From Pleurocapsaceae cyanobacterium CSU_1_1 (GTDB lineage Bacteria; Cyanobacteriota; Cyanobacteriia; Cyanobacteriales; Xenococcaceae): a DNA stretch of 34,097 bases. Below, piece after piece: positions 5,046-28,029 of the stretch. The position numbers and the translations under genes were made by a program. Where the stretch lies: the NCBI GenBank assembly GCA_012034765.1, contig JAAUOU010000045.1, positions 1 to 34,097 on the forward strand, written 5' to 3'. Within the stretch, counting starts at the first letter, position 1; every line of letters starts with the position of its first letter. The notes under the pieces are model-generated. The model worked only from the letters and a program-made list of their open reading frames with translations, had not been told where the DNA came from and ran no database searches.

Positions 5046-5242
5046 ATGCAGGACTTTTTTCAGAACGTTTCTCGCTATCCCCGCTATCTTATTAGCTTTT
5101 CTTTAGGTATTTTTTGGTTTTTCCTCCAACAGCTAAAACCTTTTCTCAAAAATCCCGTGACAGCGATCGCTTTAGTGGGTTTTTTGTCGGAGGCTTCTCT
5201 CTTTTGTACCTAACTCTAGAAGCAATGCTGGGTATTAGTTAG
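5046..5242 (+). CDS. DUF751 family small membrane protein, apparent -1 frameshift
   Basis: A small single-membrane-segment protein starting MQDFFQNVSRYPRYLI at ATG 5046, a beginning typical of the cyanobacterial and plastid DUF751 (Ycf33-like) family, whose members are about 65-70 residues. Read straight through, it ends at TAA 5211-5213 after 55 residues with an atypical tail. Adding one T to the six-T run 5180-5185, or slipping back one base there, continues as VGGFSLLYLTLEAMLG and ends at TAG 5240-5242. That gives a normal 65-residue protein. The slip site reads T TTT TTG in frame. The restored stop lies 2 bases before the rhomboid ATG, implying translational coupling. The function of the family is not known to me. 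A sequencing deletion is the likelier cause, since four other genes here show the same defect. Confidence 0.75.
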
Positions 5243-5244
5243 TC

Positions 5245-5925
5245 ATGATTCCAATTCACGATGAGAATCCTACCTACAGCACGCCAATTGTAGTTTATGC
5301 TTTAATTGCCATCAACGTGGTGGTTTTTATCCACCAAATAACTTTGGGTGCTGGATTAGATGGTTTTTTTCAACTTTATGCCACAATTCCTCAACAGTTG
5401 AGCGCTAGTTTTGATGGTATACCTACTAATCAACCCGTACCAGAGATTTTAACTTTAATTACCTCCCAATTCCTTCACGGAGGCTTGATGCATATTGCAG
5501 GAAATATGCTCTTTCTCTGGACTTTTGGCGACAATATCGAACACGATTTAGGTCACTTTAAGTTTCTCTTTTTTTATCTAGCCTGCGGAGTCTTAGCTGG
5601 TTTGACTCATTGGTTTTTTGCCATGCAGTCAGGCGTACCTACGGTGGGAGCAAGTGGCGCGATCGCAGGAGTCATGGGAGCATACATAATCAAGTATCCT
5701 AGAGCCAAAATTGTCACTTTACTGCCGTTATTTATAATTTTTACCACGGTACGCATTCCCGCGATCTACTTCCTTGGCTTTTGGTTTGTTCAGCAGGCAT
5801 TTAGCAGCGTGGCATCATTAGGAATGCCCGCCTCGGCTGGAGTTGCCTACTGGGCGCACTCTGGGGGCTTTATCTTTGGCGCAATTTTGGGTCCGATGTT
5901 AGGTTTAATGAGCGATCGCCAATAA
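5245..5925 (+). CDS. Rhomboid family intramembrane serine protease
   Basis: A 226-residue rhomboid protease that cuts transmembrane segments of substrate proteins within the membrane. The catalytic serine is S137 in GASGA (135-139) and the catalytic histidine is H205 in AHSGG. The HxxxN element that stabilises the oxyanion (H83, N87) is present, so the enzyme should be active. About six hydrophobic segments follow a short N-terminus starting MIPIHDENPT, a beginning common in bacterial rhomboids of this subgroup. The loop between the first two segments is long (about residues 33-70). The gene starts 2 bases after the restored end of the DUF751 gene and is probably co-transcribed with it. Substrates cannot be inferred. 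Confidence 0.92.
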   Translation: MIPIHDENPTYSTPIVVYALIAINVVVFIHQITLGAGLDGFFQLYATIPQQLSASFDGIPTNQPVPEILTLITSQFLHGGLMHIAGNMLFLWTFGDNIEHDLGHFKFLFFYLACGVLAGLTHWFFAMQSGVPTVGASGAIAGVMGAYIIKYPRAKIVTLLPLFIIFTTVRIPAIYFLGFWFVQQAFSSVASLGMPASAGVAYWAHSGGFIFGAILGPMLGLMSDRQ

Positions 5926-5967
5926 ATTTATTATCTCCGTGATTAATTAGGTAGAAAATATAAAGTA

Positions 5968-6357
5968 ATGAAAAAAGCAAAATTAACCACTAAAGATGAG
6001 CAAATTGGTAAATGGCGATGTGTTTCAGGTTGTGGTGCTTGTTGTAACCTTGACCCCGAAGAACGACCAGATTTAGAGGAGTATCTCTCACCAAAGGAGT
6101 TGGAAACATATCTCAGTATGGTGGGGGAAGATGGCTGGTGTATTAATTACGACCATGACCATCGTCAGTGCCAAATATATGAGCAGCGTCCTCGTTTTTG
6201 TCGAGTGCAGCCAGATAACTTCCAATCCATGTTTGGCATTGAGCCAGTAGAATTTAATAAATTTGCGATCGCCTGTTGTCAAGAGCAGATTACTGGTGTT
6301 TATGGAGTAGAAAGCCCAGAACTAAAGCATTATCATCAAGAAACTACTCAGAATTAG
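5968..6357 (+). CDS. YkgJ-type cysteine cluster protein
   Basis: A 129-residue protein of the YkgJ/UPF0153 cysteine-cluster family, thought to bind a metal or iron-sulfur centre. The cysteines fall in the expected order: C18, C22, C25 and C26 (CVSGCGACC), then C58, C68, C78 (RPRFCR) and the pair C103-C104. No signal peptide is visible, so it is probably cytoplasmic. It follows the rhomboid gene by 42 bases on the same strand and converges with trpD, 19 bases away. The biochemical role of this family is not settled. Confidence 0.8.
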   Translation: MKKAKLTTKDEQIGKWRCVSGCGACCNLDPEERPDLEEYLSPKELETYLSMVGEDGWCINYDHDHRQCQIYEQRPRFCRVQPDNFQSMFGIEPVEFNKFAIACCQEQITGVYGVESPELKHYHQETTQN

Positions 6358-6376
6358 AATTCTGCCCTTAAACACT

Positions 6377-7423
6377 TCAACTTTTCAGGAAGTTGACCAA
6401 TTCTTCTAATTTAGACCAAGCAGCGCCACTACTGATAATTTCTTGGGCAATGGTAAACCCTTGAACGTAATTTCCCAAAGGTACAAGTTCTCCCACCTGT
6501 AGAGCGAGAGCAGCGTTGAGAGCAACTGCATCCTGCTGTGCCTTTGTTCCCTTCCCCTGAAGTACATTGCGTAAAATTGCGGCATTTTCTTCCACATCTC
6601 CACCTTTTAATTCGCTCAGGGATGCAGGTTTTAAGCCCAATGTTTGGGGATTAATGGTATCAAGTCTAATTTTTCCCTGGTTAACTATCATTAAATCGGT
6701 AAGATCTCCTAATCCTGCTTCATCTAGCTTTTCTCGACCGTGCAGAGCGATCGCTTTTTTAATCCCCAACAGATTTAAAGCTTCTGCCATACTATGAATA
6801 AACTTACTGTCATAGACTCCAATAACTTGTCCTGTAGGACAAAGAGGATTAACTAGTGGTCCTAAAAGATTAAAGATTGTCCTGATTTTTAGAGTGCTGC
6901 GTAAAGGGGCGATACTTTTCATGGCAGGATGCCAGCCACGAGCAAACAAAAAGGTAACTCCAACATTTTCTACTGCTGCGATGACTTTCTCTGGAGAAGC
7001 CGTTAAATCGACTCCTAGATATTCCAAAACATCTGCCGAACCCACTTTACTAGAGGCGGAGCGATTACCATGCTTAGCCACTTTAATACCCGCTGCTGCC
7101 GCCACGAAGGCAACGGCTGTAGAAATATTAAAGGTAGATGAACCGTCGCCTCCTGTGCCACAGGTATCGATTACAGGAACAGCATATTTGCTTAACTGTT
7201 GTTGCCGAGACTGATTTTTTAATACCTGTGCCATCCCTGCTAATTCGCTAGCAGATACTCCCTTAGCTTGAATAGCTGCCAAGATTGCCCCAGATATGAC
7301 TTCAGGAATTTGCGCTGTTAACCATCCCTCCATTAGTTGTGAAGCTTGAGACTGGGAAAGAGATTGATTATCTAGTAGCTGTTGCAGCAAACTACTGAAA
7401 TCTAGAGATTTTTGATTATTCAT
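6377..7423 (-). CDS. trpD: Anthranilate phosphoribosyltransferase
   Basis: A 348-residue enzyme joining anthranilate to phosphoribosyl pyrophosphate, the second step of the tryptophan branch. The PRPP-binding glycine-rich loop [17 protein letters not shown] lies at 86-102 and [10 protein letters not shown] begins at 117, as in characterised TrpD proteins. The length is typical for the family. The ATG at 7423 is the natural start. It is not in an operon with the trpG-like gene 1.4 kb away, which fits the scattered trp genes of cyanobacteria. It converges with the YkgJ-type gene and is divergent from the pentapeptide-repeat gene. Confidence 0.96.
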
Positions 7424-7532
7424 GATTGTTTTGGCGAATTTAACCGAATTTCTCGCACTAGATACAGAAGAAGATTTACAATTAGAAACAATATTCTTTT
7501 TAGCTAAATTTGCTGAAAAATAAATTTAATCC

Positions 7533-8033
7533 ATGAAACATTTTCTCCGACTAAGCGCACTTTTGTTGCTGCTAATTCTCTTAATTTTTCCTGTTCCTGC
7601 TATAGCTGGCAGTTCGTCTGCTGTAACTCCCTCCACCTATAGCGAATCTGATTTAATCAATAAAGACTTTTCGGGGAAAGTCTTGCAGAGCGTAGATTTT
7701 GCCCGAGTCGATTTGGCAGAAGCAAACTTCAGCAACGCAGATATTCGAGGAGCAGTATTTAATGCTTCTAATTTAGCAGGGGCTAATCTCTCTGGAGCAG
7801 ATTTTAGCTATGGTTTTGGCTATTTGACTAATTTTGATGGTGCAGACTTGACGAATGCCAATTTTCAGGAATCGATTTTGTCTTTCTCTACTTTTAAAGA
7901 TGCAATTATAAACGGAGCAGATTTTACTTTTGCTGTCTTAGAAAAGTGGCAGGTCAAACAACTTTGTGAAAAGGCAACGGGAGTAAATCCGCAAACTGGA
8001 GTAGATACTCGCGAATCACTAGGATGTAAATAG
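7533..8033 (+). CDS. Exported pentapeptide-repeat protein
   Basis: A 166-residue protein with an N-terminal signal peptide (hydrophobic run of about residues 8-22, likely cleavage after AIA) followed by pentapeptide repeats of the A(D/N)Lxx type from about residue 50 to 130 (for example [20 protein letters not shown]). These should fold as a right-handed quadrilateral beta-helix. The C-terminal part has two cysteines (in KQLCEK and SLGCK) that could form a disulfide. Small secreted pentapeptide proteins of this shape occur in the thylakoid lumen of cyanobacteria and chloroplasts; that location is inferred. Transcription is divergent from trpD. No biochemical role can be read from the sequence. 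Confidence 0.85.
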
Positions 8034-8101
8034 CTTTTGATGCGCAAATAGCTAACTAGATATAAGATATTAGCGATCGCTGTCCTGAAAAACAATCAGG
8101 C

Positions 8102-8875
8102 TTATGAGGTGTAATCTAATACTCTGACTAAAGTTTGATCATTTTTTAAGTAAGATTTTTTAACTTCAAAGCGATCGCTTCCTACCTGAGCAACTTTTAA
8201 ATCTGCTGCTAAGGTTAAAAACTCTTCTACGGGAGCTAAATCGCAGTCTTTTTTACTAGCTACAGCAGTACGATAGTGAGTAGGAATTACCATCCTTGGG
8301 TTGAGAATTTTGACGACTTTTCTTGCTTCTTGAGGATTGTAGGCTTTGATTCCCCCTCCTACAGGAGTTAACAGAATATCTGCACCACTTAGAAGAATTT
8401 TATCTTCTGTTTCTAAAGCCCCAGCAGCACCACCCAAATGCAGTATATCGACTCCTCCTTGAGTCCAGCGCCAGGCAATATTATTGCCAAATCTTCGACC
8501 AGCCTCGCGATCGTGGGCAAGAGAAAATCCTTGAAACTTAATACCTTTAAAGTTATGTACGCCTCGCTGGCTGATAACCTCAGGATTTCCTTTGACTGAA
8601 TTGATTGCTCCTTCATCTGTGAGAAAGCTACTAACCAAAACTACATCTGGCTGCAAGTCGGGTAGAGTGTATCCAGCAGTGCAGCCAGCAGCTTGATAGG
8701 GATTAACTAATATCTTTAAACCATTGCCTGTAAAAAGGAAGCAGGTGTGTCCTAGATATTGGATTGTGACTCCATCTGAATCTTGAGCCATAGCTGGAAG
8801 GCGATCAATCCAGCCTAAAGAAATCGCCGTTGCGATCCCGATCCCACCATCACGGATTAACTGTCGCCGTTTCAT
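8102..8875 (-). CDS. MBL-fold hydrolase-like protein with degenerate metal site, probable Tat signal
   Basis: A 257-residue protein with the overall order of UlaG-like metallo-beta-lactamase-fold enzymes: IQYLGHTCFLF (38-48), HDREAG (121-126), a GGAAGALE segment near 150 and PTHYRT (199-203). The usual HxHxDH metal-binding loop should follow PDVVLVS. Here the sequence is SFLTDEG, so the standard histidines are absent; H43, H146 and H200 remain. The N-terminus MKRRQLIRDGG, a hydrophobic stretch and an AMAQD junction look like a twin-arginine signal, suggesting export as a folded protein. Its ATG overlaps the trpG stop by four bases (ATGA), so the two are translated together. It may be a non-catalytic or differently liganded member. 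Family call good, activity doubtful. Confidence 0.75.
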   Translation of the reverse strand: MKRRQLIRDGGIGIATAISLGWIDRLPAMAQDSDGVTIQYLGHTCFLFTGNGLKILVNPYQAAGCTAGYTLPDLQPDVVLVSSFLTDEGAINSVKGNPEVISQRGVHNFKGIKFQGFSLAHDREAGRRFGNNIAWRWTQGGVDILHLGGAAGALETEDKILLSGADILLTPVGGGIKAYNPQEARKVVKILNPRMVIPTHYRTAVASKKDCDLAPVEEFLTLAADLKVAQVGSDRFEVKKSYLKNDQTLVRVLDYTS

Positions 8876-9474
8876 ATCTTTACTTGACCCAAAGATTTTA
8901 AAAAATTACGTAATAATGATTTGCCATGATCTGTCAAAATGCTTTCGGGGTGAAACTGCACTCCCTGAAGATGATGATAGTCTCGATGTCGCACTCCCAT
9001 AATGCTTCCGTCTTCTACCCAAGCAGTAATTTCTAAAGTGTCGGGAATAGTCTCAGGCTCAATTACTAAGCTGTGATATCTTGTGGCGGTAAAAGGTGAA
9101 TCTATCCCTGCAAATATTCCCTGATTTTGATGATGTATAGCGGAAGTTTTACCATGCATCAATACTGGCGCTAAGATAATTTTCCCCCCAAAAACTTGAC
9201 CAATACTTTGATGACCCAAACAAACCCCCAAAATAGGAATTTCTGAACCAAATTTTTCAATTAACTGAAGCGAGATCCCAGCATCTTCGGGACGACCTGG
9301 GCCTGGAGAAATTAAAATACCGTCAGGTTTTAATTGAGCAATTGTCTCAATGTCGATCGCATCATTACGATAAACGCGAATATCCGCTGCCACTGGCAAT
9401 TCTTGAGCTAGTTCACCCAAATATTGCACCAAATTATAGGTAAAGCTATCGTAATTATCAATAACTATAATCAA
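8872..9474 (-). CDS. trpG: Glutamine amidotransferase subunit of anthranilate/aminodeoxychorismate synthase
   Basis: A 200-residue class I glutamine amidotransferase that releases ammonia from glutamine for anthranilate synthase (TrpE) or aminodeoxychorismate synthase (PabB). The start IVIDNYDSFTYNLVQYL is diagnostic. The catalytic triad is C85 (GVCLGHQS), H175 and E177 (VQFHPES). Many cyanobacteria use one such subunit for both enzymes, so trpG/pabA cannot be separated by sequence alone. It lies 12 bases after the dgkA-like gene and overlaps the next gene by four bases, indicating an operon. Confidence 0.93.
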   Translation of the reverse strand: MIIVIDNYDSFTYNLVQYLGELAQELPVAADIRVYRNDAIDIETIAQLKPDGILISPGPGRPEDAGISLQLIEKFGSEIPILGVCLGHQSIGQVFGGKIILAPVLMHGKTSAIHHQNQGIFAGIDSPFTATRYHSLVIEPETIPDTLEITAWVEDGSIMGVRHRDYHHLQGVQFHPESILTDHGKSLLRNFLKSLGQVKI

Positions 9475-9486
9475 GTTAAATCTCCA

Positions 9487-9939
9487 TTACATCATAAGCA
9501 TAATACGCTGAAACAATGGCGGTAGCAAGATGCAGGTGGCAACAATAACCGCGGCGATCGCACTAATCAAAACTGCTCCAGCAGCACAATCCTTAGCTAT
9601 CTTAGCCAATTCATGATAGCTTTGCTTAACCGTTAAATCTACTACCGCTTCAATTGCTGTATTAATTAATTCTAAAACCATAACTACAGCACAAGTCATG
9701 GCGATAATTGCCATTTCCACAGCTGATACCTGTAACCAAGCCCCCATGCTTAAGGCGAAGATACCGACAAAGGTATGAATCCGAAAATTTCTTTGAGTAG
9801 CAAAGGCGTACGTCACCCCCGCCCAAGCATATTTAAAGCTCAAAAACAAGTTGGGAGCGACCTGCCAGGCTAAGTCACGAATTATTTTTTGATTCGATTT
9901 AGATTCTGGGGCAGTAGGAGCAATAGTAGAAGATTTCAT
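9487..9939 (-). CDS. dgkA: Diacylglycerol/undecaprenol kinase family protein
   Basis: A small integral membrane kinase of the DgkA family, which phosphorylates diacylglycerol or, in many bacteria, undecaprenol. I place the start at ATG 9937-9939 (MKSSTIAPTA), giving 150 residues; an upstream ATG at 9993 would add 18 residues of unlikely sequence. The signature LELINTAIEAVVDL is present (glutamates 90 and 97 in this numbering), followed by KDCAAGAVLI. Three hydrophobic segments are visible. The N-terminal extension before SFKYAWAGV is common in cyanobacterial versions. It is downstream of ybeY and 12 bases before trpG, an order I recall from other cyanobacteria. Confidence 0.88.
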   Translation of the reverse strand: MKSSTIAPTAPESKSNQKIIRDLAWQVAPNLFLSFKYAWAGVTYAFATQRNFRIHTFVGIFALSMGAWLQVSAVEMAIIAMTCAVVMVLELINTAIEAVVDLTVKQSYHELAKIAKDCAAGAVLISAIAAVIVATCILLPPLFQRIMLMM

Positions 9940-10086
9940 AGTTATATTTAATATAAACTGCGTTGGATTGGCTCTTTTGCTCGATTCAATCATGGCGACA
10001 GATACAATTGTAGTCCGTATATGTACTTAATTTATAACGTCATCATAACTCAAGGTTTATAAATTGAAATGTTCAGATTAGACAGT

Positions 10087-10635
10087 CTAAAATTGTGTAA
10101 AACTTGGTAATTCATCGAATTTGAGAGCATTTAAAGAATAAATTAATTCTTTTTGTTGACTTAACATTTGCTGTAAACTCTCATCATCAGGGTGATCCCA
10201 GCCGAGCAGATGTAGCAACCCGTGGGTCGATAACCAAGCTAATTCCACTTTTAAAGGATGTTTTTGCTCTTTGGCTTGTCTCATCGCCGTATCTAAAGAT
10301 ATGATTATGTCTCCTAAATATAAAGGCTCTGTCAACTCGGCAGGAAGAATTATATCTGTCTCGGTACTGGCAAATGCTAAAACGTCAGTTGGTTGGTCTA
10401 GGCGACGATATTGATGGTTATATTGTTGAATTTGGCGATCGTCTGTTAATTTTAAGCTCAGTTCGCAATCTTGAGGTATGTCAATAGTTTGATTTAAAAA
10501 GTTCAGCCAATTTTGAAACCAACCGACCCAATCAACTGATTTCACCTGATTTAAGTCTGCTGGGGCTAAATTACCCAGATAATCATTTTCGACATAAATC
10601 TCGCTATTTATAGATTGTCCTACAGCTACATTCAT
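10087..10635 (-). CDS. ybeY: Endoribonuclease YbeY (16S rRNA maturation factor)
   Basis: A 182-residue YbeY, a zinc-dependent single-strand RNase involved in 16S rRNA 3'-end maturation and ribosome quality control. The metal-binding motif HGLLHLLGWDH supplies H138, H142 and H148. Tryptophan in GWDH is a variation on the commoner tyrosine. Upstream are the family elements RQIQQYNHQYR and PTDVLAFA. The N-terminal 50 residues are longer than in E. coli, as is usual for cyanobacteria. It starts 7 bases after the DUF3285 gene, so the two are probably co-transcribed. Confidence 0.95.
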   Translation of the reverse strand: MNVAVGQSINSEIYVENDYLGNLAPADLNQVKSVDWVGWFQNWLNFLNQTIDIPQDCELSLKLTDDRQIQQYNHQYRRLDQPTDVLAFASTETDIILPAELTEPLYLGDIIISLDTAMRQAKEQKHPLKVELAWLSTHGLLHLLGWDHPDDESLQQMLSQQKELIYSLNALKFDELPSFTQF

Positions 10636-10642
10636 CTTGTGG

Positions 10643-10837
10643 TTATGGTTTGGTTAAATAAGCTAGTCCGACCAAAAGACCGACTAAACCGACTGTAGTG
10701 AGGAAAAAATGCCACAGGGATTGTCTTCCCTTGCGAACCATGTTTCTCATTGCCAATTTAATATAGCTATCTTTTGGCTTAGTTTCTCCTGATTCGGGTA
10801 TTTCATTTTGTCTCGGTTTAGAGGTAGATTCTGCCAT
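10643..10837 (-). CDS. DUF3285 family small membrane protein
   Basis: A 64-residue protein with a polar, proline-rich N-terminus (about 25 residues), a conserved YIKLAMRNMVRKG segment and one C-terminal membrane helix (about residues 42-61). This layout matches the small cyanobacterial DUF3285 family as I remember it. The function is unknown. It precedes ybeY by 7 bases, and this pairing is the only functional hint. The family name is from memory and was not searched. Confidence 0.72.
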   Translation of the reverse strand: MAESTSKPRQNEIPESGETKPKDSYIKLAMRNMVRKGRQSLWHFFLTTVGLVGLLVGLAYLTKP

Positions 10838-10893
10838 GTTTAAAATAATTAAAATAGTTTGAGTAGTTTAAGATTTGTTTCGGTAATTTAAAT

Positions 10894-11598
10894 TCATGAT
10901 AGTACTTGAACACCCAAAAAACACAGAAATCCACTAGCTAAAGGAACAGTCAGATTGTCTATTCCTAGCTTAGAAAAAGCCTCAGCAACTGTGGCGACGA
11001 AGGCAACCACTACAGCAATTGTCCATGTCTGCCAGTTATTACCCTCTACGGGCAAAAGAATTGCTCCTGTAACGATTAAAGCTGCTCCTATCATCGCCCC
11101 AGAGCCTTCCCAACTTTTAGTAATTTCACCGATCTGATACTTGTGTTGACCAAAACGTTGTCCAATAATTGCAGCCATCCCGTCGCCCCACGCCATCACT
11201 AAGATCCCGATGACTGCGTACTGGGGGGTATCGACCCAAAAATAAGCAGCTAAAATACCCATACTGAGGGCATAGAATAAAGTGCCAAAGCTTCTGCGTC
11301 CCACACTTTCAATGCTAGGAAGGATGGGGATGAGATAAGATAGAATGGCGATCGCCGCAGCGATGATTGCAGCAGTTACAATTACTGCACGAGAAATATC
11401 TAGCCACCACGCCAGCAGGATAACGTTGCCACTGCCGATATGAACCACCTTGCGAGTTAGTTCAGGATCGTTGGTAATGACGCGGCTCAATATTTCAGCG
11501 ACAAACACAAGTAGCGCCAGATAAACAAAGACAACTCCTAAAGGAAGGGCAAGATTAACTAGAGTATGGTTCAACCAAAGCGATTCTGGGTAGCTCAT
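10894..11598 (-). CDS. Phytol/polyprenol kinase family membrane protein (VTE5-like)
   Basis: A 234-residue multi-spanning membrane protein of the CTP-dependent dolichol/phytol kinase group related to phosphatidate cytidylyltransferase. It shows ELTRKVVHIGSGN near residue 43, the acidic AWGDGMAAIIGQRFG region near 140, and SWEGSGAMIG, all features of the VTE5/FOLK kinases. In cyanobacteria the homologous enzyme phosphorylates phytol released from chlorophyll so that it can be reused for tocopherol. Substrate specificity here is inferred only. About six or seven hydrophobic segments are present. It is divergent from the MscS-type gene and upstream of the DUF3285-ybeY operon by 56 bases. Confidence 0.82.
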   Translation of the reverse strand: MSYPESLWLNHTLVNLALPLGVVFVYLALLVFVAEILSRVITNDPELTRKVVHIGSGNVILLAWWLDISRAVIVTAAIIAAAIAILSYLIPILPSIESVGRRSFGTLFYALSMGILAAYFWVDTPQYAVIGILVMAWGDGMAAIIGQRFGQHKYQIGEITKSWEGSGAMIGAALIVTGAILLPVEGNNWQTWTIAVVVAFVATVAEAFSKLGIDNLTVPLASGFLCFLGVQVLS

Positions 11599-11785
11599 GA
11601 ATATTGCTCATACATATAGAGAATAGAAAAAATAGTTAGGCTAGATAGCTGAAAATCTAGTAGTCTGACCAATAGTACCAAAGAGCAATTCTTAAACTCA
11701 AAAAATTTCTCCCAAGGAATTTAACTTTCCGAAACTATGATTAGCGGTGGATTTTGCTAATTGCCACAAAACTCTTGTCAGTTAT

Positions 11786-13422
11786 ATGCTCAGGAAAAAA
11801 CTCTGCATCATCTTGATCGTAATTATAGGAATTACCTCAACTGTTTTGCCCGTTAGCGCAGCACAGCTGCCCTTTGTTCAAGATATAGCAATCTATTCTC
11901 GCTTGCTCCGTCAGGTGCAAGAAAACTCACTTAATTCTGCCTGTATTCGTTTAGATGGACGCTGTTTATTTAAGCTATCTGCCACCGATTCTGAATTATT
12001 GGGTGACAGAATTAATGAAATTCAAAAGCGTTTTGCCCAAGTAAGTGCCGACTCTTTAGCCGTTCCCGATAGCCAAATCGAAGTTACTGTCAAACCAAAC
12101 GGCAATTTACAAGACTTATATATAACTGTTGGCGATCGCTCTGAACGTTTATTTACCGTTACAAATATTGATGCTGAGGCTAACGATGTTGGTGTTCCCG
12201 TAAGGACGCGACAGCTTGAATTTGCCATTGAGCAGGGTTTACAAACAGCCAAAAAGAGCGATCGCCCCAATATTTGCGCCAGCAGGTAGTTATTGGATTT
12301 TGTATTTTGTTTGTTGTCTGGCTGGTTAATTTTCCTCTAGATCGAAAAGTTAGAGCCTTACGCAAGTCAGCGAAAAAACTTGCCCCCACCTCAAAACTGA
12401 AAACTCTCTCTATTACAGATCAGTTAGCTCAACGTCAAAAATGGAATCTAACTGAAATTCAATTTCGGCTGCTGCAACTAACTCAGATCTTAATCTGGAG
12501 TGGTGGAGCTTTAGGAATTTTGAATCTTTATCCTCAAACGCGGATCATTCCTTTTTTACTGATTGCTAGTTTGCGAATTCCTTTTCGGATCGGCATGATC
12601 GTCTTTATTGTCTATTTTTTGGTTCGGTTGACCTATTTTCTGATTGCCAAAATCAGCGCAGCAGCAATTGATACTCAGTCTAGCGATCTAAAAGTTAATC
12701 AGCGAGGTAAGTTACGTATCAATACTACCACCAGAATTTTGCGTAGCACAGTAACTATTATCTGGGTGGGAGTAGGTATCCTCGCAGCTTTTTGGATCAA
12801 TGGGGTTAATCTAGCACCATTATTAACTGGCGCAGGTATTTTTGGCTTAGGTCTATCCTTAGCTTCTCAAAACTTGATTAAGGACGCGATCAACGGTTTT
12901 ATAATTATCTGGGACGATCGCTATGCTGTGGGCGACGTAGTTGATATTGGCACGGTTGGTGGTCTGGTAGAAAATATTAATTTACGCATTACTCAGCTAA
13001 GAGATGCGGAAGGGCGATTGATTACTATCCCCAATAGTGCAGTGGAGATTGTGTCAAACCGCTCTAGTCAGTGGTCTAGAGCAGATCTGATTATTCCTGT
13101 AGCATATCAAACAGACATTGACTGCGCTTTAGAAGTAATCGAGCAAGTAGCTCAAGCCCTAACTGAAGATTGTCAATGGAGCGATCGCATTTGGGAGTTT
13201 CCTCAAGTTTTAGGTGTAGATCAATTTAGCGATCGCGGAATTTTAATTCGAGTCTGGATTAAAACCGAACCACTACAGCAATGGGATGTCGCCAGAGAAT
13301 TTCGTCGTCGAGTTAAAATTGCTTTTGATCGAGCGGGTATTCCAATTCCCATTCCCCAACAGCAAATCTTATTTGACCAGAAAAAGGCCTTGAACAAGAT
13401 TAACAATATCGAGCAAAATTAA
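11786..13422 (+). CDS. MscS-type mechanosensitive channel, apparent frameshift
   Basis: Two frames form one gene. The first (from ATG 11786; a GTG at 11747 would add 13 residues) has a signal peptide (MLRKKLCIILIVII, cleavage near VSA-AQL) and a periplasmic domain with a C...GRC cysteine pair. It stops at TAG 12287-12289. The second, open through 13422, carries membrane helices, the MscS pore helix (GAGIFGLGLSLASQNLIKD) and the beta domain (GDVVDIGTVGG). Adding one C to the run 12265-12268 joins them as DRPQYLRQQVV and gives about 545 residues, the normal length of cyanobacterial channels with this extra periplasmic domain. MscS channels release solutes during osmotic downshift. The break is probably a read or assembly error. 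Confidence 0.85.
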
Positions 13423-14419: not shown

Positions 14420-14438
14420 TCTTTATGAAATCACCTTA

Positions 14439-15098: not shown

Positions 15099-15112
15099 TC
15101 GAATTAGAGCTT

Positions 15113-15658
15113 TTAAGCCTTAGCCTTAATTAAAGCTACATCAATGCGAGATTTATCTGGTTGAGTAATTTCGGCTTTAATATCAGGACCAAAAAACTTT
15201 TCGATTTGTTCGTGTCTTTCTTGCCAATCTGATAAGGAGAAAAAAGGTGAATAATATTCCATCAGCAGAGTATAAGCACCATCTCTAGATTGCTCTTGAA
15301 TACCTGACAAGATCGGTCTTTCTTCATCTGTAGGGCTAAGACCAAACTTGGCTAAACAATCGTCTAAATGAGCTTCTTGTCCATAGCGAAAACGAGTTAC
15401 ATCTTTACGTAATTGCTCTTGAGTTGGGGTTGCTTGCGATCGCAATTCCTTCACTTCTGGAGTAGTTGGCACTGTATAAGGTACGGGCTTTAATTCTGAT
15501 GCTTTAAGCGCCAAACCACCTAGCAACAGGGGAATTCCGTAAAAGAACCCTGCTAAATTAAGAGTATTCATCCCCACTGCATAAGCATAAAAGCCAACGA
15601 TGGTTAAGATTCCCCCGACGGTTAAACCAACAGCAGCTAAGGGTATTTTTCGCAACAT
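15113..15658 (-). CDS. DUF2854 family membrane protein
   Basis: A 181-residue protein with two N-terminal hydrophobic segments (about residues 7-28 and 35-52) joined by a short turn, then a soluble domain rich in charged residues (RSQATPTQEQLRKDVTRFRYG, SLSDWQERHEQIEKFFGPDI). This matches the DUF2854 family found in cyanobacteria and plant plastids. The function is not known to me. It is convergent with eda, 14 bases apart, and divergent from the small acidic protein gene. Confidence 0.78.
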   Translation of the reverse strand: MLRKIPLAAVGLTVGGILTIVGFYAYAVGMNTLNLAGFFYGIPLLLGGLALKASELKPVPYTVPTTPEVKELRSQATPTQEQLRKDVTRFRYGQEAHLDDCLAKFGLSPTDEERPILSGIQEQSRDGAYTLLMEYYSPFFSLSDWQERHEQIEKFFGPDIKAEITQPDKSRIDVALIKAKA

Positions 15659-15738
15659 ATTTAAAAAATTGTTTATATTTATCGATATTGTCTATTCTAA
15701 AGCTAATGGATACTCGAAAAAAATAAAATTAGCAAATT

Positions 15739-15918
15739 ATGGACAAAGCAGATATTAAAGCCAGAATCGCCCAAATGAACTCTAAACGAGATTCTTTAGT
15801 TGAACTTTTGGAAAGACCAAATTTGGGAACATTAAGAATTGATGTCGATCAAGCTCTAGAAGAACTAGATGAATTAATCGAAGAATTTAATGAAACCTTT
15901 CCTGAAGAGAAGGTTTAA
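15739..15918 (+). CDS. Small acidic coiled-coil protein, unknown function
   Basis: A 59-residue frame starting MDKADIKARIAQMNSKRDSL and ending FPEEKV. It is strongly charged, with a heptad-like LEELDELIEEFNE segment at about residues 40-52, so a helical coiled coil is likely. Codon use and HIP1-free composition look like the neighbours, and it fills the gap between DUF2854 and the GNAT gene. I do not recognise a family. Real-gene status rests on composition and protein-like sequence. Confidence 0.6.
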   Translation: MDKADIKARIAQMNSKRDSLVELLERPNLGTLRIDVDQALEELDELIEEFNETFPEEKV

Positions 15919-15960
15919 TCTGTATTTATTGTCAGTCTGGTTAACGAGCAATTAACATCG

Positions 15961-16407
15961 ATGAAAATTTATCAAGCAACTATTAAACAATTAGATCAAG
16001 TTGCTTTTCTCTTCAATCAATATCGCATTTTTTACCGTCAGCCAGCGGATTTAAAATCCGCCCAAAAATTTATTCGCGAACGTTTACAGCAGCAGGATGC
16101 AGTTATCTTTTTAGCCAGAGAAAATGAGCAGCCTGTTGGCTATACTCAGCTATTTCCTTCCTGGTCTTCTGTCTCAATGCAGCGAGTCTGGATTCTAAAT
16201 GATTTGTTTGTGCTAAGGGAAAAGAGAAATCAGGGCATCGCCAAAGCTTTAATGAATAAGGCTAAAGATCATGCTATATCTACCAATGCTGTGAGAATTA
16301 TCTTGGCGACGGAAGTAACCAACCAAATAGGGCAAAATCTATACGAATCAATGGGTTATCGTCATTTTGATGACTTCTATCACTACATGCTGTCGCTTGA
16401 CTCTTAA
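15961..16407 (+). CDS. GNAT family N-acetyltransferase
   Basis: A 148-residue acetyltransferase using acetyl-CoA to acylate an amine. It has the central strand VGYTQLFPSWSS, then WILNDLFVLREKRNQGIAKALM, where RNQGIA is the coenzyme-A pyrophosphate loop (Q/RxxGxG/A), and a C-terminal LYESMGYRHFDDFYHYML. The length equals one GNAT domain. The start MKIYQATIKQLDQVAFLFNQYR is typical. The substrate cannot be told from sequence. It starts 42 bases after the small acidic protein gene and may be co-transcribed with it. Confidence 0.88.
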   Translation: MKIYQATIKQLDQVAFLFNQYRIFYRQPADLKSAQKFIRERLQQQDAVIFLARENEQPVGYTQLFPSWSSVSMQRVWILNDLFVLREKRNQGIAKALMNKAKDHAISTNAVRIILATEVTNQIGQNLYESMGYRHFDDFYHYMLSLDS

Positions 16408-16498
16408 TTTAATTTGTGCAGCAATTCCCACCTGTTCGCCCTAATAGTCATAACTTGTTGAGAAAACCTAATAAAACTTGAATATTACAGCCTACATA

Positions 16499-16547
16499 GT
16501 GCCAAATTTTGCTAACTTCAAATTTAGCAATAAATAACTATTGGCAC
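16499..16547 (+). promoter_or_regulatory. Nested inverted repeats abutting a GTG start
   Basis: GTGCCAA (16499-16505) pairs perfectly with TTGGCAC (16541-16547). Inside it, TTGCTAA (16509-16515) pairs with TTAGCAA (16524-16530). The right outer arm ends one base before the GTG start of the next gene, so in RNA the structure would cover the ribosome-binding region; in DNA it could be an operator. Confidence 0.45.
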
Positions 16548-16548
16548 A

Positions 16549-16875
16549 GTGAAATACTTTTTTCTGAGTGATGGCTGGAATTACGATCGAGTTTGGGAAT
16601 TTGGCGGATTATGGGATCAAGTTGACTGGGGACGCAAACCCGAAATTAAACGCCTTGATTGTGGCATTTTACAGCAGCAGGAAATCCTCTGGCTCTATGC
16701 CGTGGAAAATGAAGTGATCATGGTGGAAGTTAAGCCTAAACAAGAGCTACAGGAAAGCTCAAATATTGGGCAGGTAGTACTTAAAAGACTTATTAGCGCC
16801 GAACAAGTGATTGAAATTTTGCACCAGGCTGAATCAGTTTTTAATTCTGCTACTAGAAAACATATAACAATCTAA
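16549..16875 (+). CDS. Conserved cyanobacterial protein of unknown function
   Basis: A 108-residue soluble protein starting at GTG 16549 (MKYFFLSDGWNYDRVWEFGG). The tryptophan-rich start and GQVVLKRLISAEQVIEIL near the C-terminus resemble a short hypothetical family I have seen in cyanobacteria, but I know no function. No Shine-Dalgarno sequence is evident, and the start is flush against an inverted repeat. It stands alone between the GNAT gene and psbB. Confidence 0.68.
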   Translation: MKYFFLSDGWNYDRVWEFGGLWDQVDWGRKPEIKRLDCGILQQQEILWLYAVENEVIMVEVKPKQELQESSNIGQVVLKRLISAEQVIEILHQAESVFNSATRKHITI

Positions 16876-17185
16876 CTACAAATATTCAGAACCACTATTT
16901 TGTTACAAAATTTAACTTTTGTCGATAAAACAAGATAGTTCTTGCAATAGTTTCTAACAATAGTTACACTTCTTTAAATAACAGTAATTTCAAGGAACTC
17001 CTGAACTAGCTCAATTTTTTGCACCACTATTATCAGATTTTTCTATAGAAGGGCAGAGATTGTGGCGTACATACAAATTACAAAATAAGAGTCAACTTTA
17101 GCATTACTATTTTATTAGTAATGTTGACCAACATTATTTGGTCTTACCTAAACAAATTATTTAATCAATAGGAGGGGTGTAGTCT
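16876..17185 (+). promoter_or_regulatory. psbB upstream/leader region with bulged stem-loop and strong RBS
   Basis: No gene is present in this 310-base stretch. In it, GTCAA (17091-17095) plus CATTACTA (17102-17109) pair perfectly with TAGTAATG (17116-17123) plus TTGAC (17124-17128), making a 13-bp stem with a 6-nt bulge (17096-17101) and the loop TTTTAT. A strong ribosome-binding site, GGAGGGG at 17171-17177, lies 8 bases before the psbB ATG. I could not fix the promoter. Confidence 0.6.
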
Positions 17186-18717
17186 ATGGGACTACCTTGG
17201 TATCGAGTTCATACAGTCGTCCTGAATGATCCAGGCAGACTAATATCGGTTCACCTAATGCACACTGCTTTAGTAGCAGGTTGGGCGGGTTCGATGGCTT
17301 TATTTGAGCTAGCAACCTTCGACCCTAGTGATGCTGTCTTGAACCCCATGTGGCGACAGGGAATGTTTGTTTTACCTTTTATGGCACGTTTGGGCGTTGA
17401 CACCTCTTGGGGTGGTTGGAGCGTAACTGGTGAAACTGGTGCAAGTGCAGGCTTTTGGTCTTTTGAAGGTGTGGCGATCGCCCATATCGTGCTTTCTGGC
17501 TTACTGTTTTTAGCAGCAGTATGGCACTGGGTATACTGGGATTTAGAATTATTTGTCGATCCTCGCACTGGTCAGCCAGCCTTAGATTTACCAAAAATGT
17601 TCGGGATTCATTTATTCTTATCTGGATTACTTTGCTTTGGTTTTGGAGCATTCCATCTCACAGGCTTGTGGGGACCAGGAATGTGGGTTTCCGATGCCTA
17701 TGGCTTAACTGGTCACGTTCAAGGTGTTGCGCCAGAATGGGGACCTGCGGGGTTTAATCCCTTTAATCCTGGTGGTGTTGTAGCTCACCACATTGCTGCT
17801 GGTGTAGTTGGTATTATTGCTGGTTTATTTCATCTCAGCGTTCGTCCTCCAGAGCGACTATACAAAGCATTGAGAATGGGGAACATTGAAACTGTTCTAT
17901 CCAGCAGTATTGCTGCGGTATTTTTTGCTGCTTTTGTGGTTACAGGAACTATGTGGTACGGAAATGCAACAACTCCTGTAGAACTTTTTGGTCCAACTCG
18001 TTATCAATGGGATCAAGGCTATTTTAAACAAGAAATTCAGCGTCGTGTTGAAACTGCTATGGACGATGGTTTAACTCGTTCTGAAGCCTGGTCGACAATT
18101 CCTGAAAAATTAGCCTTTTATGACTATGTTGGTAACAGCCCCGCTAAAGGTGGTCTGTTCCGTACAGGCTCAATGGATAGTGGTGATGGTATTGCTCAAG
18201 AATGGTTAGGACATGCAGTATTTACTGATGGTGAAGGTCGTGAATTAAGCGTTCGTCGGATGCCCAATTTCTTTGAAACCTTCCCTGTTATTTTGACTGA
18301 TGCTGATGGCGTGGTTCGCGCTGATATTCCTTTCCGTCGTGCAGAATCTAAACTCAGTGTTGAACAAGGCGGTGTAAACGTCGCCTTCTATGGTGGCGCA
18401 TTGGACGGTCAAACCTTTGATGATCCTGCTACTGTCAAAAATATGCACGTAGATCTCAATTAGGAGAAGCGTTCGATTTTGACACTGAAACTTTAGATTC
18501 TGATGGTGTATTCCGTACTAGTCCTCGTGGTTGGTTTACTTTCGGTCATGCTGTGTTTGCACTCTTCTTTTTCTTTGGTCATATTTGGCATGGTTCTCGT
18601 ACACTGTACCGAGACGTATTTGCTGGAGTTGACCCTGATCTAGAAGAAGAACAAGTAGAGTGGGGATTCTATCAGAAAGTGGGTGACAAATCTACTCGTG
18701 CTACAAAAGGAGCATAA
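17186..18717 (+). CDS. psbB: Photosystem II CP47 chlorophyll-binding protein, apparent frameshift
   Basis: CP47, the inner antenna protein that passes excitation from phycobilisome and chlorophyll to the PSII reaction centre. The start [19 protein letters not shown] is diagnostic. Six membrane helices with chlorophyll-ligating histidines (for example [13 protein letters not shown]) and a large lumenal loop follow. The frame meets TAG at 18461-18463 after an atypical ending. Adding one A to the five-A run 18437-18441 gives [16 protein letters not shown] and continues through the last helix to TAA 18715-18717, for 510 residues, the family length. The 3' part is perfectly conserved in type ([15 protein letters not shown]), so the gene is surely intact in the cell. 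Confidence 0.96.
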
Positions 18718-18748
18718 TAACGATTAACTAGCTATTTTCTAGCTGGGA

Positions 18749-18793
18749 ATTTCAGGGAAGACAAATTGCTTATTTAATTACCTTCCCTGAAAT
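18749..18793 (+). terminator. 12-bp inverted repeat between psbB and psbT
   Basis: ATTTCAGGGAAG (18749-18760) is perfectly complementary to CTTCCCTGAAAT (18782-18793) across a 21-nt AT-rich loop. It starts 32 bases after the psbB stop. There is no T-tract after it, so it may be an mRNA 3'-end stabiliser or processing site rather than a standard intrinsic terminator; psbT probably also has its own promoter. Confidence 0.55.
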
Positions 18794-18874
18794 CATTGAG
18801 ACAATGTAACTGGAAAACCACTTCAGTTCTTTTGTTGGTAAAATATTAAGTAAAATACTTTAGGAATTTCAATT

Positions 18875-18970
18875 ATGGAAGCTGTTGCATACATTTTGGT
18901 TTTAGCTATGGCAATTTCAGTTCTTTTCTTTGCGATCGCTTTTCGCGAACCACCTCGGATTGAAAAATAA
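18875..18970 (+). CDS. psbT: Photosystem II protein T
   Basis: A 31-residue single-helix subunit of photosystem II (MEAVAYILVLAMAISVLFFA, then FREPPRIEK). PsbT sits at the PSII dimer interface beside D1 and CP47 and helps acceptor-side recovery after photoinhibition. The MEAxAYxxxL start and charged stromal tail are typical and the length is exact. It lies 157 bases after psbB, the usual partner in cyanobacteria and plastids. HIP1 occurs inside the gene. Confidence 0.96.
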   Translation: MEAVAYILVLAMAISVLFFAIAFREPPRIEK

Positions 18971-19124
18971 GCTTAAGAAAATAATTAAGTATTATTAAGA
19001 ACTATACATTTCTGAGTCTTTTTTAATTATGGTCTGTTGCAAGACAAACTATGATATTAAAAATGGCTCAGATTTGTTGTTTATAAACAATTTATTGTCA
19101 GTAACCATAATATTAAAAAAATCA

Positions 19125-19658
19125 ATGCACTGTCCCAATTGCCAACATACAGAGAGTAGAGTACTAGAATCTCGTTCTACGGAAAGTGGGCAAAGTATTC
19201 GTCGTCGCCGAGAATGTTTGAATTGTAAACAGCGTTTTACAACTTACGAGAGAATTGAATTAATTCCCATTACTGTTATCAAAAAAGATGGTAGTAGAGA
19301 ATCCTTTGATCGAGCAAAATTGCTGCGGGGAGTCTTGAGGGCTTGTGAAAAAACTCAAGTTTCTTATCAGAAGGCGGAGGTGATTATTGATAATATCGAA
19401 GCCAAACTCCAGCAAAATTCAGGTAAAGAATTTAGTAGTAGCGAGATTGGGGAATTAGTTTTACACAATTTGCGTTACGAAAATGAAGTAGCTTATATAC
19501 GCTTTGCCTCTGTTTATCGAAAATTTCAAGGAATTAAAGATTTTGTTGAGACTTTAAATCATTTGCAAAATGAAAATGCGCAAGATTCCGAGCCAAAAAT
19601 CTGGAATGGTTCTCAAGGCGCAAGTTCATCTACAGCTACTGCTGACTGCATTTCCTAA
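19125..19658 (+). CDS. nrdR: Transcriptional repressor NrdR
   Basis: A 177-residue NrdR, an ATP/dATP-sensing repressor of ribonucleotide reductase genes. I start at ATG 19125 ([17 protein letters not shown]), since the zinc ribbon is always at the very N-terminus; a longer frame from 19029 adds 32 implausible residues. Zinc cysteines are C3, C6, C31 and C34. The ATP-cone begins at about residue 48 ([16 protein letters not shown]) and runs to [10 protein letters not shown]. The last 30 residues are polar and variable. It lies between psbT and rpsA, an order I recall from other cyanobacteria. Confidence 0.95.
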
Positions 19659-19709
19659 ATTAATACTTAAGTAAAAAAAATTTCCGCTCAGACCAATAAA
19701 AAGTTACAA

Positions 19710-19718
19710 TGGTATAAT
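19710..19718 (+). promoter_or_regulatory. Extended -10 promoter candidate for rpsA
   Basis: TGGTATAAT reads as an extended -10 (TG, one base, then consensus TATAAT at 19713-19718). No clear -35 is seen, which is acceptable for extended -10 promoters. It lies about 200 bases before the rpsA ATG, implying a long leader. The leader contains a 22-codon frame (ATG 19779, MTSDSFLVTR) and an AGGAGG at 19866-19871 with no standard start codon after it. Confidence 0.5.
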
Positions 19719-19919
19719 GCTATCTTGCCCACAAAAAAGAAGCGTTTCAGTAGCAAAGTGTTTAATTGAGGTAATTTTATGACCTCTGACTCTTTCTTAG
19801 TTACTCGAATATCTATCGAATGTAGGTACAGACTGCACGATAAGTAGGTGAGTGTACATTAAACAGGAGGCTCATCCCATCAAAAAAGTAAGGAAATAAC
19901 ACAAGGACATCTAATCCAT

Positions 19920-20960
19920 ATGGTCAATCAGCAAGCAAACAGCACTAAAGATATTGGTTTTACTCACGAAGATTTCGCTGCACTCCTAGACAAATACGAT
20001 TATCACTTTAGTCCAGGAGATATAGTTGCAGGAACAGTTTTCAGCATGGAACCAAGAGGAGCTTTGATTGACATTGGTGCGAAAACTGCTGCTTACATTC
20101 CGATTCAGGAGATGTCTATTAATCGAGTTGACAACCCCACAGAAGTTCTCCAAGCGGACGAAACCAGAGAGTTTTTCATCTTAACTGATGAAAACGAGGA
20201 TGGACAACTAACTCTTTCAATCAGACGTATTGAGTACATGCGTGCTTGGGAAAGAGTCAGACAACTACAGCAAGAAGATGCTACTGTGCGCTCCAATGTT
20301 TTTGCTACTAACCGTGGTGGTGCTTTGGTTAGGATTGAAGGACTACGAGGCTTTATTCCAGGTTCTCACATCAGCGCCAGAGAAGCCAAAGAGGATTTAG
20401 TAGGAGAAGATCTACCGCTAAAATTTTTAGAAGTTGACGAAGAACGTAATCGACTTGTTTTAAGCCATCGTCGTGCTTTAGTGGAGCGCAAGATGAATGG
20501 TTTAGAAGTAGGTCAAGTAGTCAAAGGTTCTGTACGCGGGATCAAGCCTTACGGTGCGTTTATTGACATTGGTGGAGTTAGTGGATTACTCCACATCTCG
20601 GAAATCTCTCACGATCATATTGATACACCTCATAGTGTATTTGGAGTCAATGACGAATTGAAAGTAATGATTATTGACCTAGATGCAGAAAGAGGTCGGA
20701 TCTCGCTTTCTACGAAGCAATTAGAGCCAGAACCAGGTGACATGCTCAAAAATAGAGATATAGTATTTGAGAAAGCTGAAGAGATGGCAGAAAAATATCG
20801 TCAGAAGCTACTAGCCGAAGCTGAAGGTGTCACTTTAGAAGAGATACAGGCTGAACAAGCAGTATCAGATGAAGAAACAGAAACATCAGCAGAATTTGTT
20901 GATGAGGCAGCAGATGAATCCGTAGCTGAAGACTCATCTGATTCATCTGAAGAATGGTAG
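19920..20960 (+). CDS. rpsA: 30S ribosomal protein S1
   Basis: A 346-residue S1 with three S1 RNA-binding domains beginning at about residues 31 (GDIVAGTVFSMEPRGALIDI), 118 and 196 (GQVVKGSVRGIKPYGAFIDI). It is the short cyanobacterial and plastid form rather than the six-domain enterobacterial one. S1 brings mRNA to the 30S subunit. The acidic C-terminal tail (about 305-346, rich in E, D, S) is typical of the cyanobacterial form. The ATG at 19920 follows a long leader. An intrinsic terminator follows 49 bases downstream. Confidence 0.95.
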   Translation: MVNQQANSTKDIGFTHEDFAALLDKYDYHFSPGDIVAGTVFSMEPRGALIDIGAKTAAYIPIQEMSINRVDNPTEVLQADETREFFILTDENEDGQLTLSIRRIEYMRAWERVRQLQQEDATVRSNVFATNRGGALVRIEGLRGFIPGSHISAREAKEDLVGEDLPLKFLEVDEERNRLVLSHRRALVERKMNGLEVGQVVKGSVRGIKPYGAFIDIGGVSGLLHISEISHDHIDTPHSVFGVNDELKVMIIDLDAERGRISLSTKQLEPEPGDMLKNRDIVFEKAEEMAEKYRQKLLAEAEGVTLEEIQAEQAVSDEETETSAEFVDEAADESVAEDSSDSSEEW

Positions 20961-21009
20961 GAGCGACATCGGAAGAGTAGAGCGAAAGAAACTCTATTAA
21001 GGGATGTTC

Positions 21010-21039
21010 TAGAGAGAGTCAAACTCTCTCTATTTTTTT
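21010..21039 (+). terminator. Intrinsic terminator after rpsA
   Basis: TAGAGAGAGT (21010-21019) and ACTCTCTCTA (21023-21032) form a perfect 10-bp stem with a 3-nt loop, followed at once by a seven-T run. This is a strong factor-independent terminator separating rpsA from the HAD phosphatase gene. Confidence 0.9.
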
Positions 21040-21071
21040 AGTTAGTTACTTGAGCGAAAAAAAATTGATCT

Positions 21072-21830
21072 ATGTCCATTGCGATGCCTTCGGCTAGTTT
21101 CACAATCGCCTGTAAAGATGTAAGATTCGATGATATAACTGCAATTATCTTTGATAAAGACGGTACTCTGGAAAATTCTGGAGCATATTGGCGCTTAGTT
21201 GGCTCGGAAAGAGCGCGCTTAATCGATGCTCAAATTCCTGGGGTGGGTGAGCCTTTGATGATGGCGTTTGGGATCATGGATGATATTTTAGACCCTCAAG
21301 GCTTAATGGCAGTGGGCAGTCAAAAAGAGAATGAAATTGCTGCTGCTGCTTATATTGCCGAAACTGGTAGAAGCTGGTACGAATCTAGAAAAATTGCCAA
21401 GTCAGTTTTTAGCGAGGTATCTGAATCAAAATATCTGACTAAAACAGCAAAATTAGCGCCTCTATATGATGATGTTCAAGAAACTCTAGATTCTCTTGGC
21501 AACAAAGGATTGAAAATTGGTATTTTGTCTGCGGACTCAACTAAGGAAGTAAAAAACTTTGTTAGCAATCATCAGTTGCAGGATTATATTCAACTTTGTT
21601 TGGGAAGCAACCAAGAAATCAGCAAGCCAGATCCCAGACTTTTTAGACAGGCTTGTGAAGCTTTAAAAGTAGCTCCAGAACAAACTTTGATGGTGGGAGA
21701 TACTGAGGTTGATATGGCTATGGCAAAAACCGCTAAAGCCGCTGGCACAATTGGTATTCGCCGTCATCAAATACGACTAGATTTAGCAGACGTTGAAATT
21801 GACACTTTACTTAAAATTCAAGCTTTATAA
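21072..21830 (+). CDS. HAD family hydrolase (phosphatase-like)
   Basis: A 252-residue haloacid dehalogenase-type phosphatase. Motif I is FDKDGT with nucleophile D28 and acid/base D30; motif II is S153 (ILSADS); motif III is K185 (SKPDP); motif IV is D210 and D214 (MVGDTEVDM). A helical cap lies between motifs I and II (about 45-130). The layout resembles phosphoglycolate phosphatases of photorespiration, but HAD substrates are not predictable from motifs. It sits between the rpsA terminator and metK and appears to be its own unit. Confidence 0.88.
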   Translation: MSIAMPSASFTIACKDVRFDDITAIIFDKDGTLENSGAYWRLVGSERARLIDAQIPGVGEPLMMAFGIMDDILDPQGLMAVGSQKENEIAAAAYIAETGRSWYESRKIAKSVFSEVSESKYLTKTAKLAPLYDDVQETLDSLGNKGLKIGILSADSTKEVKNFVSNHQLQDYIQLCLGSNQEISKPDPRLFRQACEALKVAPEQTLMVGDTEVDMAMAKTAKAAGTIGIRRHQIRLDLADVEIDTLLKIQAL

Positions 21831-22073
21831 TTCTTAAAATAACTTGTATGATGTTCAGGGTGAGGGCAAGAATCAGGAGCTAGCGTTTTCTGTATTAAGA
21901 ATAATTTTAGTAGTACTGACAATCAAGACTCAATCTGGTTATAACGCTTTGGAAATATCATATTTTTGACTCAATTTTTCTTACTTACCCTGGTATTATG
22001 TTTTTTAACGATTATAATGCTTGGTTTGATTGATCGCTTCGTTTGACAAAGTTTCTTAGAGGATTGCAAAAAA

Positions 22074-23326
22074 TTGTCTAATAATTATTTATTCACTTCC
22101 GAATCAGTTACAGAAGGACATCCAGATAAAATCTGTGACCAAATCTCTGACGCTATTCTGGATGCTATCTTGGCTCAGGATTCTGCTAGCCGAGTGGCAG
22201 CCGAAGTGGTTGTTAACACTGGTTTGGTTTTGGTTACAGGAGAGATTACAACCAAAGCTCAAGTCAATTACGTAGATTTAGTTAGAAGCAAGATTGCTGA
22301 AATTGGCTATACCCATGCCGAAAATGGCTTTTCTGCCGATAGCTGTTCGGTATTAGTTGCACTTGATGAACAGTCTCCAGATATTTCTCAAGGTGTAACA
22401 TCTGCCCAAGAACAAAGGGAAAATCTGAGTGACAGTGAGCTTGACCAAATTGGTGCTGGCGATCAAGGACTGATGTTTGGTTATGCCTGTAACGAAACTC
22501 CAGAATTGATGCCTATGCCCATTAGTTTGGCACATCGTATTTCCCGTCGGTTGGCTGAAGTACGTAAACAAGGAGATTTAACTTATCTGCGTCCTGACGG
22601 TAAGACGCAGGTTTCAGTTCAGTATGAAGATGGTAAACCAGTCGGAATTGATACTATTTTAGTCTCAACGCAACATACAGAGACTATTGATGATTTGTCC
22701 GACAATACTGCTATTCAAAAAAAGATTAAAGATGATCTTTGGTCTGTGGTAATTCAACCTACGTTTGCCAATCTTGATTTAAAACCTAATGATTGCACTC
22801 GTTTTTTGGTTAATCCTACAGGTAAATTTGTGGTCGGTGGTCCTCAAGGGGATTCAGGCTTGACTGGACGTAAAATTATTGTAGATACCTATGGTGGCTA
22901 TTCTCGTCATGGTGGCGGTGCTTTTTCGGGAAAAGACCCTACAAAAGTTGACCGTAGTGCTTCTTATGCCTGTCGTTATGTTGCTAGCAATATTGTGGCA
23001 GCAGGTTTAGCCGATAAGTGCGAAGTACAGGTAAGTTACGCCATCGGTGTTGCTCGTCCTGTGAGTATCTTTATTGAAACTTTTGGCACAGCTAAGATTG
23101 CCGAGGATAGTTTATTAGACTTAGTTAAACAGCATTTCGAGTTGCGCCCTGCGGGTATCATCCAAACTCTTAATTTACGCAATTTGCCCCAAGAAAGAGG
23201 CGGGCGTTTTTATCAAGACGTAGCTGCCTATGGACATTTTGGTCGTACAGATTTAGATTTATCCTGGGAAAAACAGATAAAGCAGAACTGTTGAAAGATT
23301 TTGCTCTATCTAAAAGTGCAGGTTAA
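22074..23326 (+). CDS. metK: S-adenosylmethionine synthetase, apparent frameshift at 3' end
   Basis: Makes S-adenosylmethionine from methionine and ATP. The TTG start at 22074 gives [20 protein letters not shown], the expected N-terminus, and follows an AGAGGA ribosome-binding site. Signatures are GHPDK (15-19), [12 protein letters not shown] (127-138) and the glycine-rich loop [15 protein letters not shown]. The frame as given ends at TGA 23292-23294 after KQIKQNC. Adding one A to the five-A run 23269-23273 yields [20 protein letters not shown] and a stop at 23324-23326, for 417 residues as usual in cyanobacteria. The gene is essential, so the break is probably an error. It has about 240 bases of leader with no gene; I recognise no known SAM riboswitch in it. 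Confidence 0.95.
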
Positions 23327-27658: not shown

Positions 27659-27670
27659 ATTAAGAGGTGG

Positions 27671-27783: not shown

Positions 27784-28029
<246 letters not shown>

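Follow-up and report, generated by a model that had tools for sequence, protein, structure and literature searches.

The 34,097-nt contig JAAUOU010000045.1 of Pleurocapsaceae cyanobacterium CSU_1_1 (hereafter the window) carries five genes with broken reading frames, encoding a DUF751 protein, an MscS-type channel, an M48 peptidase, CP47 (psbB), and MetK (metK). Each gene is one base short relative to its counterpart in the nearest genome found (G005) and, where an alignment could be made, in G002 and other congeners, and all five are whole in G005. We infer, short of proof, that the five breaks are very probably residual consensus insertion or deletion (indel) errors of the draft assembly (G000; 4.61 Mb, 196 contigs, 95.9% complete), in which the window is contig C93. 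Judged by alignment, breaks of this kind are specific to this assembly and lie on several contigs; they are single-base changes, for the most part deletions within A/T runs, and extend to essential genes. An assembly error is favored because the breaks are assembly-specific and occur on other contigs and in indispensable genes (rpoB, rpoC2, the C half of dnaE, and psbB), with almost no other signs of decay. A first-pass annotation, made from the window sequence alone, had described all five genes as lacking one base and had proposed comparison with close relatives as a check; the alignments, especially that to G005, confirm the missing base in every case and show whole genes in the relatives.

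G005 aligns with window positions 8067-23463 at 94.5% identity and with 5952-8049 at 95.0%. Other parts are 87-91% identical to it. By block, identity between the two genomes ranges from 84% to 97%, with the main blocks on C93 and C82 at 94-96%. One piece of G005, 4,440 nt long, matches a contig of Pleurocapsa sp. CCALA 161 at 100% identity. No further frame-breaking differences were found inside window gene bodies where these align to G005, small stretches being unaligned.

All five genes lie on the plus strand. In psbB, the upstream piece (17186-18463; PF00421 positions 1-419) is interrupted at an A run at 18437-18441, which has five bases in the window and six in G005 and G002. The shift removes the final sixth of CP47 from the frame, and the rest continues in another frame at 18427-18687 (PF00421 positions 415-500). 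The metK gene (22074-23294), a single copy in G000, likewise has A5 at 23269-23273, one base short of the A6 in G005 and G002. It is barely affected: the 406-aa frame, which would have 417 aa when whole, differs only in its last residues, beyond SWEK and near the gene end. The DUF751 gene (PF05421; 5046-5213) shifts at a T run at 5180-5185 (T6 in the window, T7 in G005), giving a 55-aa frame compared with a 65-aa open reading frame (ORF) in G005. These three runs had been named as the break sites in the first-pass annotation, and G005 is indeed one base longer at each. The MscS-type gene consists of an upstream piece of 180 aa (11747-12289) and a downstream piece (12274-13422) that contains the Pfam MS_channel domains; the G005 ORF has 558 aa. 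Its break had been placed in the C run at 12265-12268, which is of equal length in the window and G005. The short run is instead an A run at 12251-12255 (A5 in the window, A6 in G005). The M48 gene is divided into an upstream piece of 76 aa (13560-13790), with the shift at about 13764-13768, and a downstream piece (13943-14419; PF01435 positions 46-185), compared with an ORF of 287 aa in G005. At 13764-13771 the window reads TTGGGAAA, G005 TTAGGGAAA, and G002 TTAGGCACA. The one-base loss proposed here stands: from the aligned motifs (TTGGG vs TTAGGG), either an A is lost, or a G is lost after a silent change of TTA to TTG, and there is no clear homopolymer event.

Similar breaks are found elsewhere in the draft. 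A pairwise comparison covered 40 G000 sequences (736 kb) and 44 G005 sequences (814 kb), of which 96 kb aligned at an identity of at least 84%; the pairing was non-random, several contigs having been chosen for matching. The aligned coding set comprises 83 genes with 78,343 nt of coding sequence (CDS), divided into 32 genes and 26,593 nt in the window and 51 genes and 51,750 nt outside it. Frame events were counted in ORFs of at least 100 aa, so the DUF751 gene, which is below this limit, is additional to the count. G000 has 15 net frame events relative to G005. Three of these, at most 36 nt from a G005 stop, and one insertion 12 nt from a contig end were set aside. The 11 remaining gene-body events are all single-base changes (10 deletions and one insertion, in apcE2 on C100). 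Four belong to the window, and the seven outside it comprise six deletions and the insertion, giving about the same rate inside and outside, approximately 1 per 7 kb of coding DNA overall. About 1 in 8 sampled genes is broken. Within this sample of the genome, the breaks are spread over contigs C25, C45, C82, C93, C100, and C116 and include essential genes. The reverse test revealed no clearly truncated G005 genes, the 14 events listed being the same sites mirrored or ORF ends and starts. A sign test of G000 against G005 gives 7 to 0 outside the window (p = 0.016) and 11 to 0 with the window's own four events included (p = 0.001). By these counts, the frameshifts exceed chance, and the clear ones are confined to the G000 assembly. 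The suggestion that all shifts go in the same direction holds within the window and fails in the genome, where rpoB and apcE2 gain a base.

Core genes are broken as well: rpoB, rpoC2, and the C half of dnaE are essential to a living cell. These genes were searched in 13 genomes of the genus, namely G000 and 12 congeners. In G000, rpoB is divided into two frames, compared with a single frame in 11 of the 12 congeners; the copy of the twelfth, G009, spans two contigs. Similarly, rpoC2 has two frames in G000 and one match in all 12 congeners, the G009 copy having an internal TAA. G000 has a shortened C half of dnaE, whereas 10 of 12 congeners have a full one (partial in G009, with G001 lacking an entry among the matches listed). 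Alignments of these sites, at 95% and 90% identity, show that rpoB has gained an A (AAAA to AAAAA), that rpoC2 has lost one (AAA to AA), and that the C half of dnaE lacks a single base next to a T run. The ORF at the rpoC1 position (627 aa in both G000 and G005) and the N half of dnaE are unbroken in G000. The dnaE gene itself is split over two loci in G000 (C122 and C25) and in several congeners. In G002, G003, G004, and G010, a single long ORF of 1319-1766 aa holds its first part, and a gap near profile position 364 looks like an inserted intein.

A survey of psbB gives a comparable picture. In 36 of 39 other genomes, the gene is a single open frame that spans the family profile from end to end; in the remaining three, it is cut by contig ends (G004 and G009) or has none among the matches listed (G017). 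Among the 12 congeners, psbB is whole in 10 and cut by contig ends in two, and no psbB frameshift persisting in related lineages was seen. A second set of psbC-like, psbB, and apcE copies lies on G000 contig C100 (12412-24601), 85-90% identical to contig C136 of G005. From its gene content, we take this to be a far-red light (FaRLiP-type) cluster. Its psbB (psbB2) and apcE (apcE2) genes are frameshifted in the draft.

The types of lesion also distinguish error from decay. The codon comparison of G000 and G005 gives 3,789 silent, 1,373 replacement, and six nonsense differences. By our reading, three of the nonsense differences fall within a few codons of a gene's end, two affect a doubtful 115-aa ORF, and the one on C86 is a possible case. 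Where net frame-breaking indels have other sizes (11, 8, and 13 bases), they occur only within 36 nt of a stop, and the gene-body lesions are therefore single bases. The mixed lesions expected of pseudogenes, nonsense changes and indels of all sizes, are nearly absent from gene bodies of the aligned set, and the coding sequences otherwise look constrained. In nine broken genes, 281 silent and 150 replacement differences, with one in-frame stop near a gene end, follow the break, compared with 329 and 105 before it. The post-break parts thus appear still constrained, though somewhat less, a comparison of little weight since different genes contribute.

Nearly all events lie in or beside A/T runs, mostly of 3-6 bases with one T6/T7, and exceptions are few. 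Among G/C runs of at least three bases in CDS with matching flanks, none of 354 is changed, and none of 459 in a larger set. None of the break sites has a long homopolymer tract (about nine bases or more), and M48 and rpoC2 are without a usable tract. Systematic assembly error, as the first-pass annotation had proposed, is upheld as the likeliest cause, but not purely as homopolymer deletion: rpoB and apcE2 have insertions, rpoC2 changes from AAA to AA, and the M48 event is not clearly in a run.

Most likely, the genes are whole in the living organism. Base calling or consensus building would miscount short, mostly A/T runs, usually dropping a base and sometimes adding one, and would leave frame-breaking errors at the rate counted above. 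Reads would be expected to show the other run lengths. A long-read error profile fits as the cause. In the portions of the Kastor study consulted, long-read drafts display deletions after homopolymers, few single-base deletions outside runs, and some insertions after A or T (PMC12007338). G000 is alike in its single-base indels, the dominance of deletions, the link to short homopolymers, the few events outside runs, and the many split genes. Unlike in that profile, a trend with run length is not seen outside the window in G000. The literature searched, including the parts of PMC10587186 covered, did not give the sequencing method of this draft.

Several observations weigh against an assembly error. 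The psbB gene on C93 and the far-red copy on C100 both have A5 where their G005 copies have A6, in the same codons; the second psbB copy of G002 reads AAGAAA at that motif. Two independent random errors at one psbB motif would be a coincidence, and a context-dependent error would account for both. However, a simple context rule is unsupported because a C45 run with a similar context to the psbB site (CGCTAAAAAATATG) is retained at full length, and inspection by eye revealed no plain context rule around A runs. The relation to run length is also weak. A first table (74 kb aligned) had suggested a rise, with 3 of 38 A/T6 runs shortened versus 2 of 1,250 A/T3-5 runs (p = 0.0002), all three being window sites. 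In the final tables, from which psbB2 is excluded because its flanks differ, 3 of 25 A/T6 runs in window CDS with matching flanks are shortened, and all three are sites named in the first-pass annotation. Outside the window, shortened runs number 1 of 243 (A/T4), 2 of 73 (A/T5), 0 of 31 (A/T6), 0 of 5 (A/T7), and 0 of 2 (A/T8), and one A/T3 run near a contig edge is longer. The run-length argument was dropped because of the 0 of 31, and runs are not uniformly shortened in the draft. 23S rRNA, sought as an independent check, gave no match in G000, G005, or G002, in a search that also missed 4 of 14 control genomes. A missing 23S rRNA is common in short-read bins, and short reads rarely produce such indels. 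Some of the counted events are less secure: C82:8548 and C45:32195 are no more than about 150 nt from the called ORF start in G005 and may precede the true start, and the genes that contain C25:464 and C45:22400 may be true pseudogenes. The reverse test also gave one pair of short ORFs, of 102 aa on C115 and 86 aa in G005, that are one base apart; either copy may be the whole one. A 1.1-kb segment shared by C25 and C65, considered as an internal check, is 89% identical between them; these are different copies and are uninformative.

Recent real decay, in which the genes would have been lost through frameshift, is highly unlikely. One-base deletions in runs are a normal type of mutation, and 11 of 12 congeners have larger genomes than the draft, which has 4.6 Mb and is 96% complete. 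However, no living cell could have lost rpoB, rpoC2, and the C half of dnaE together, the nonsense changes and other-size indels expected of decay are nearly absent from gene bodies, and the excess of silent over replacement differences indicates coding sequences that are otherwise constrained. Even less likely than decay is a mixture of strains in which the slips arise from bad joins in the draft. The spread of block identities to G005 would suit a mixture, as would the position of the C100 far-red cluster at their low end, but within blocks the events are exact single-base slips, most of them in short runs, and identity continues across them without haplotype breakpoints.

The frameshifts could also be real, with the frame restored by transcriptional slippage or ribosomal frameshifting at runs. 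This explanation, about as improbable as a strain mixture, draws on the location of most events in A/T runs and on both psbB copies being broken at one motif; moreover, silent differences still outnumber replacements downstream of the breaks in nine genes. In the part of the literature consulted, transcription insertions grow with run length, and those within runs in Escherichia coli and Buchnera are all in A or T runs (PMC5574713). Rescue is known, although presumed, in Blochmannia and Buchnera, where one-base indels in A/T tracts of otherwise constrained genes resemble those of G000 (PMC3017870). Many tracts in Blochmannia genes have nine or more bases, and B. vafer has eight affected genes, according to the portion of that source covered, in which a tract length for each frameshift was not seen (PMC3017870). 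In contrast, the G000 runs are mostly of 3-6 bases, some sites have no run, about 1/8 of the sampled genes are affected, and the congeners tested are unaffected. Recoding has been demonstrated in chloroplasts, where atpB, like psbB a photosynthesis-related gene with a frame change at an A stretch and in a cyanobacteria-derived system, is recoded at an oligoA stretch (PMC8254509). However, as described in the part of that work consulted, the atpB stretch has 11 A and carries an insertion, and a one-A deletion kept approximately 5% activity in an E. coli assay (PMC8254509). M48 and rpoC2 offer no usable run on which to slip, the directions of the G000 shifts are mixed, and the breaks tested in congeners are not common to them. 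Finally, the polymerase needed for slippage is encoded in part by rpoB and rpoC2, both of which are split. Given these split subunit genes and the shortness of the runs, the lineage tolerant of slippage that the first-pass annotation offered as its alternative is very unlikely. Least likely of all is broad frameshifting at short A/T runs, polymerase subunits included, that an unusually slippery RNA polymerase or ribosome would read correctly, with the break common to both psbB copies as a conserved slip site.

If the breaks are assembly errors, they are an ordinary sequencing artefact without biological significance, and their value is as a warning. Should the sampled rate outside the window (7 per 52 kb) hold, approximately 500 genes of the draft would be wrongly annotated as fragments or pseudogenes, a figure extrapolated from a sample that was not random. 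Among them would be rpoB, rpoC2, and psbB, together with psbB2 and apcE2 of the far-red cluster. Claims of gene loss from this genome are unadvisable.

By our count, 34 window genes have a Pfam match. The genes for ATP synthase subunits a, c, b', b, delta, alpha, and gamma (26915-32359) are all unbroken. Between the alpha and gamma genes, a 26-nt stretch at about 31292-31317 belongs to a short repeat family: G002 has dozens of near-exact matches to it, several of which follow one another in tandem every 14 nt. A BrnT/BrnA toxin-antitoxin pair lies on the minus strand at 25123-25642, between methyltransferase and ATP synthase genes, and both of its ORFs are open. The best named matches of the window's heavy-metal ATPase are from Myxosarcina, Pleurocapsa, and Waterburya, in a ranking from which records of the genome itself may be excluded. 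Elsewhere in the draft, contig C82 contains an interspersed repeat of about 73 nt (L071:5639-5711), which recurs many times in G002 and several times in G005.

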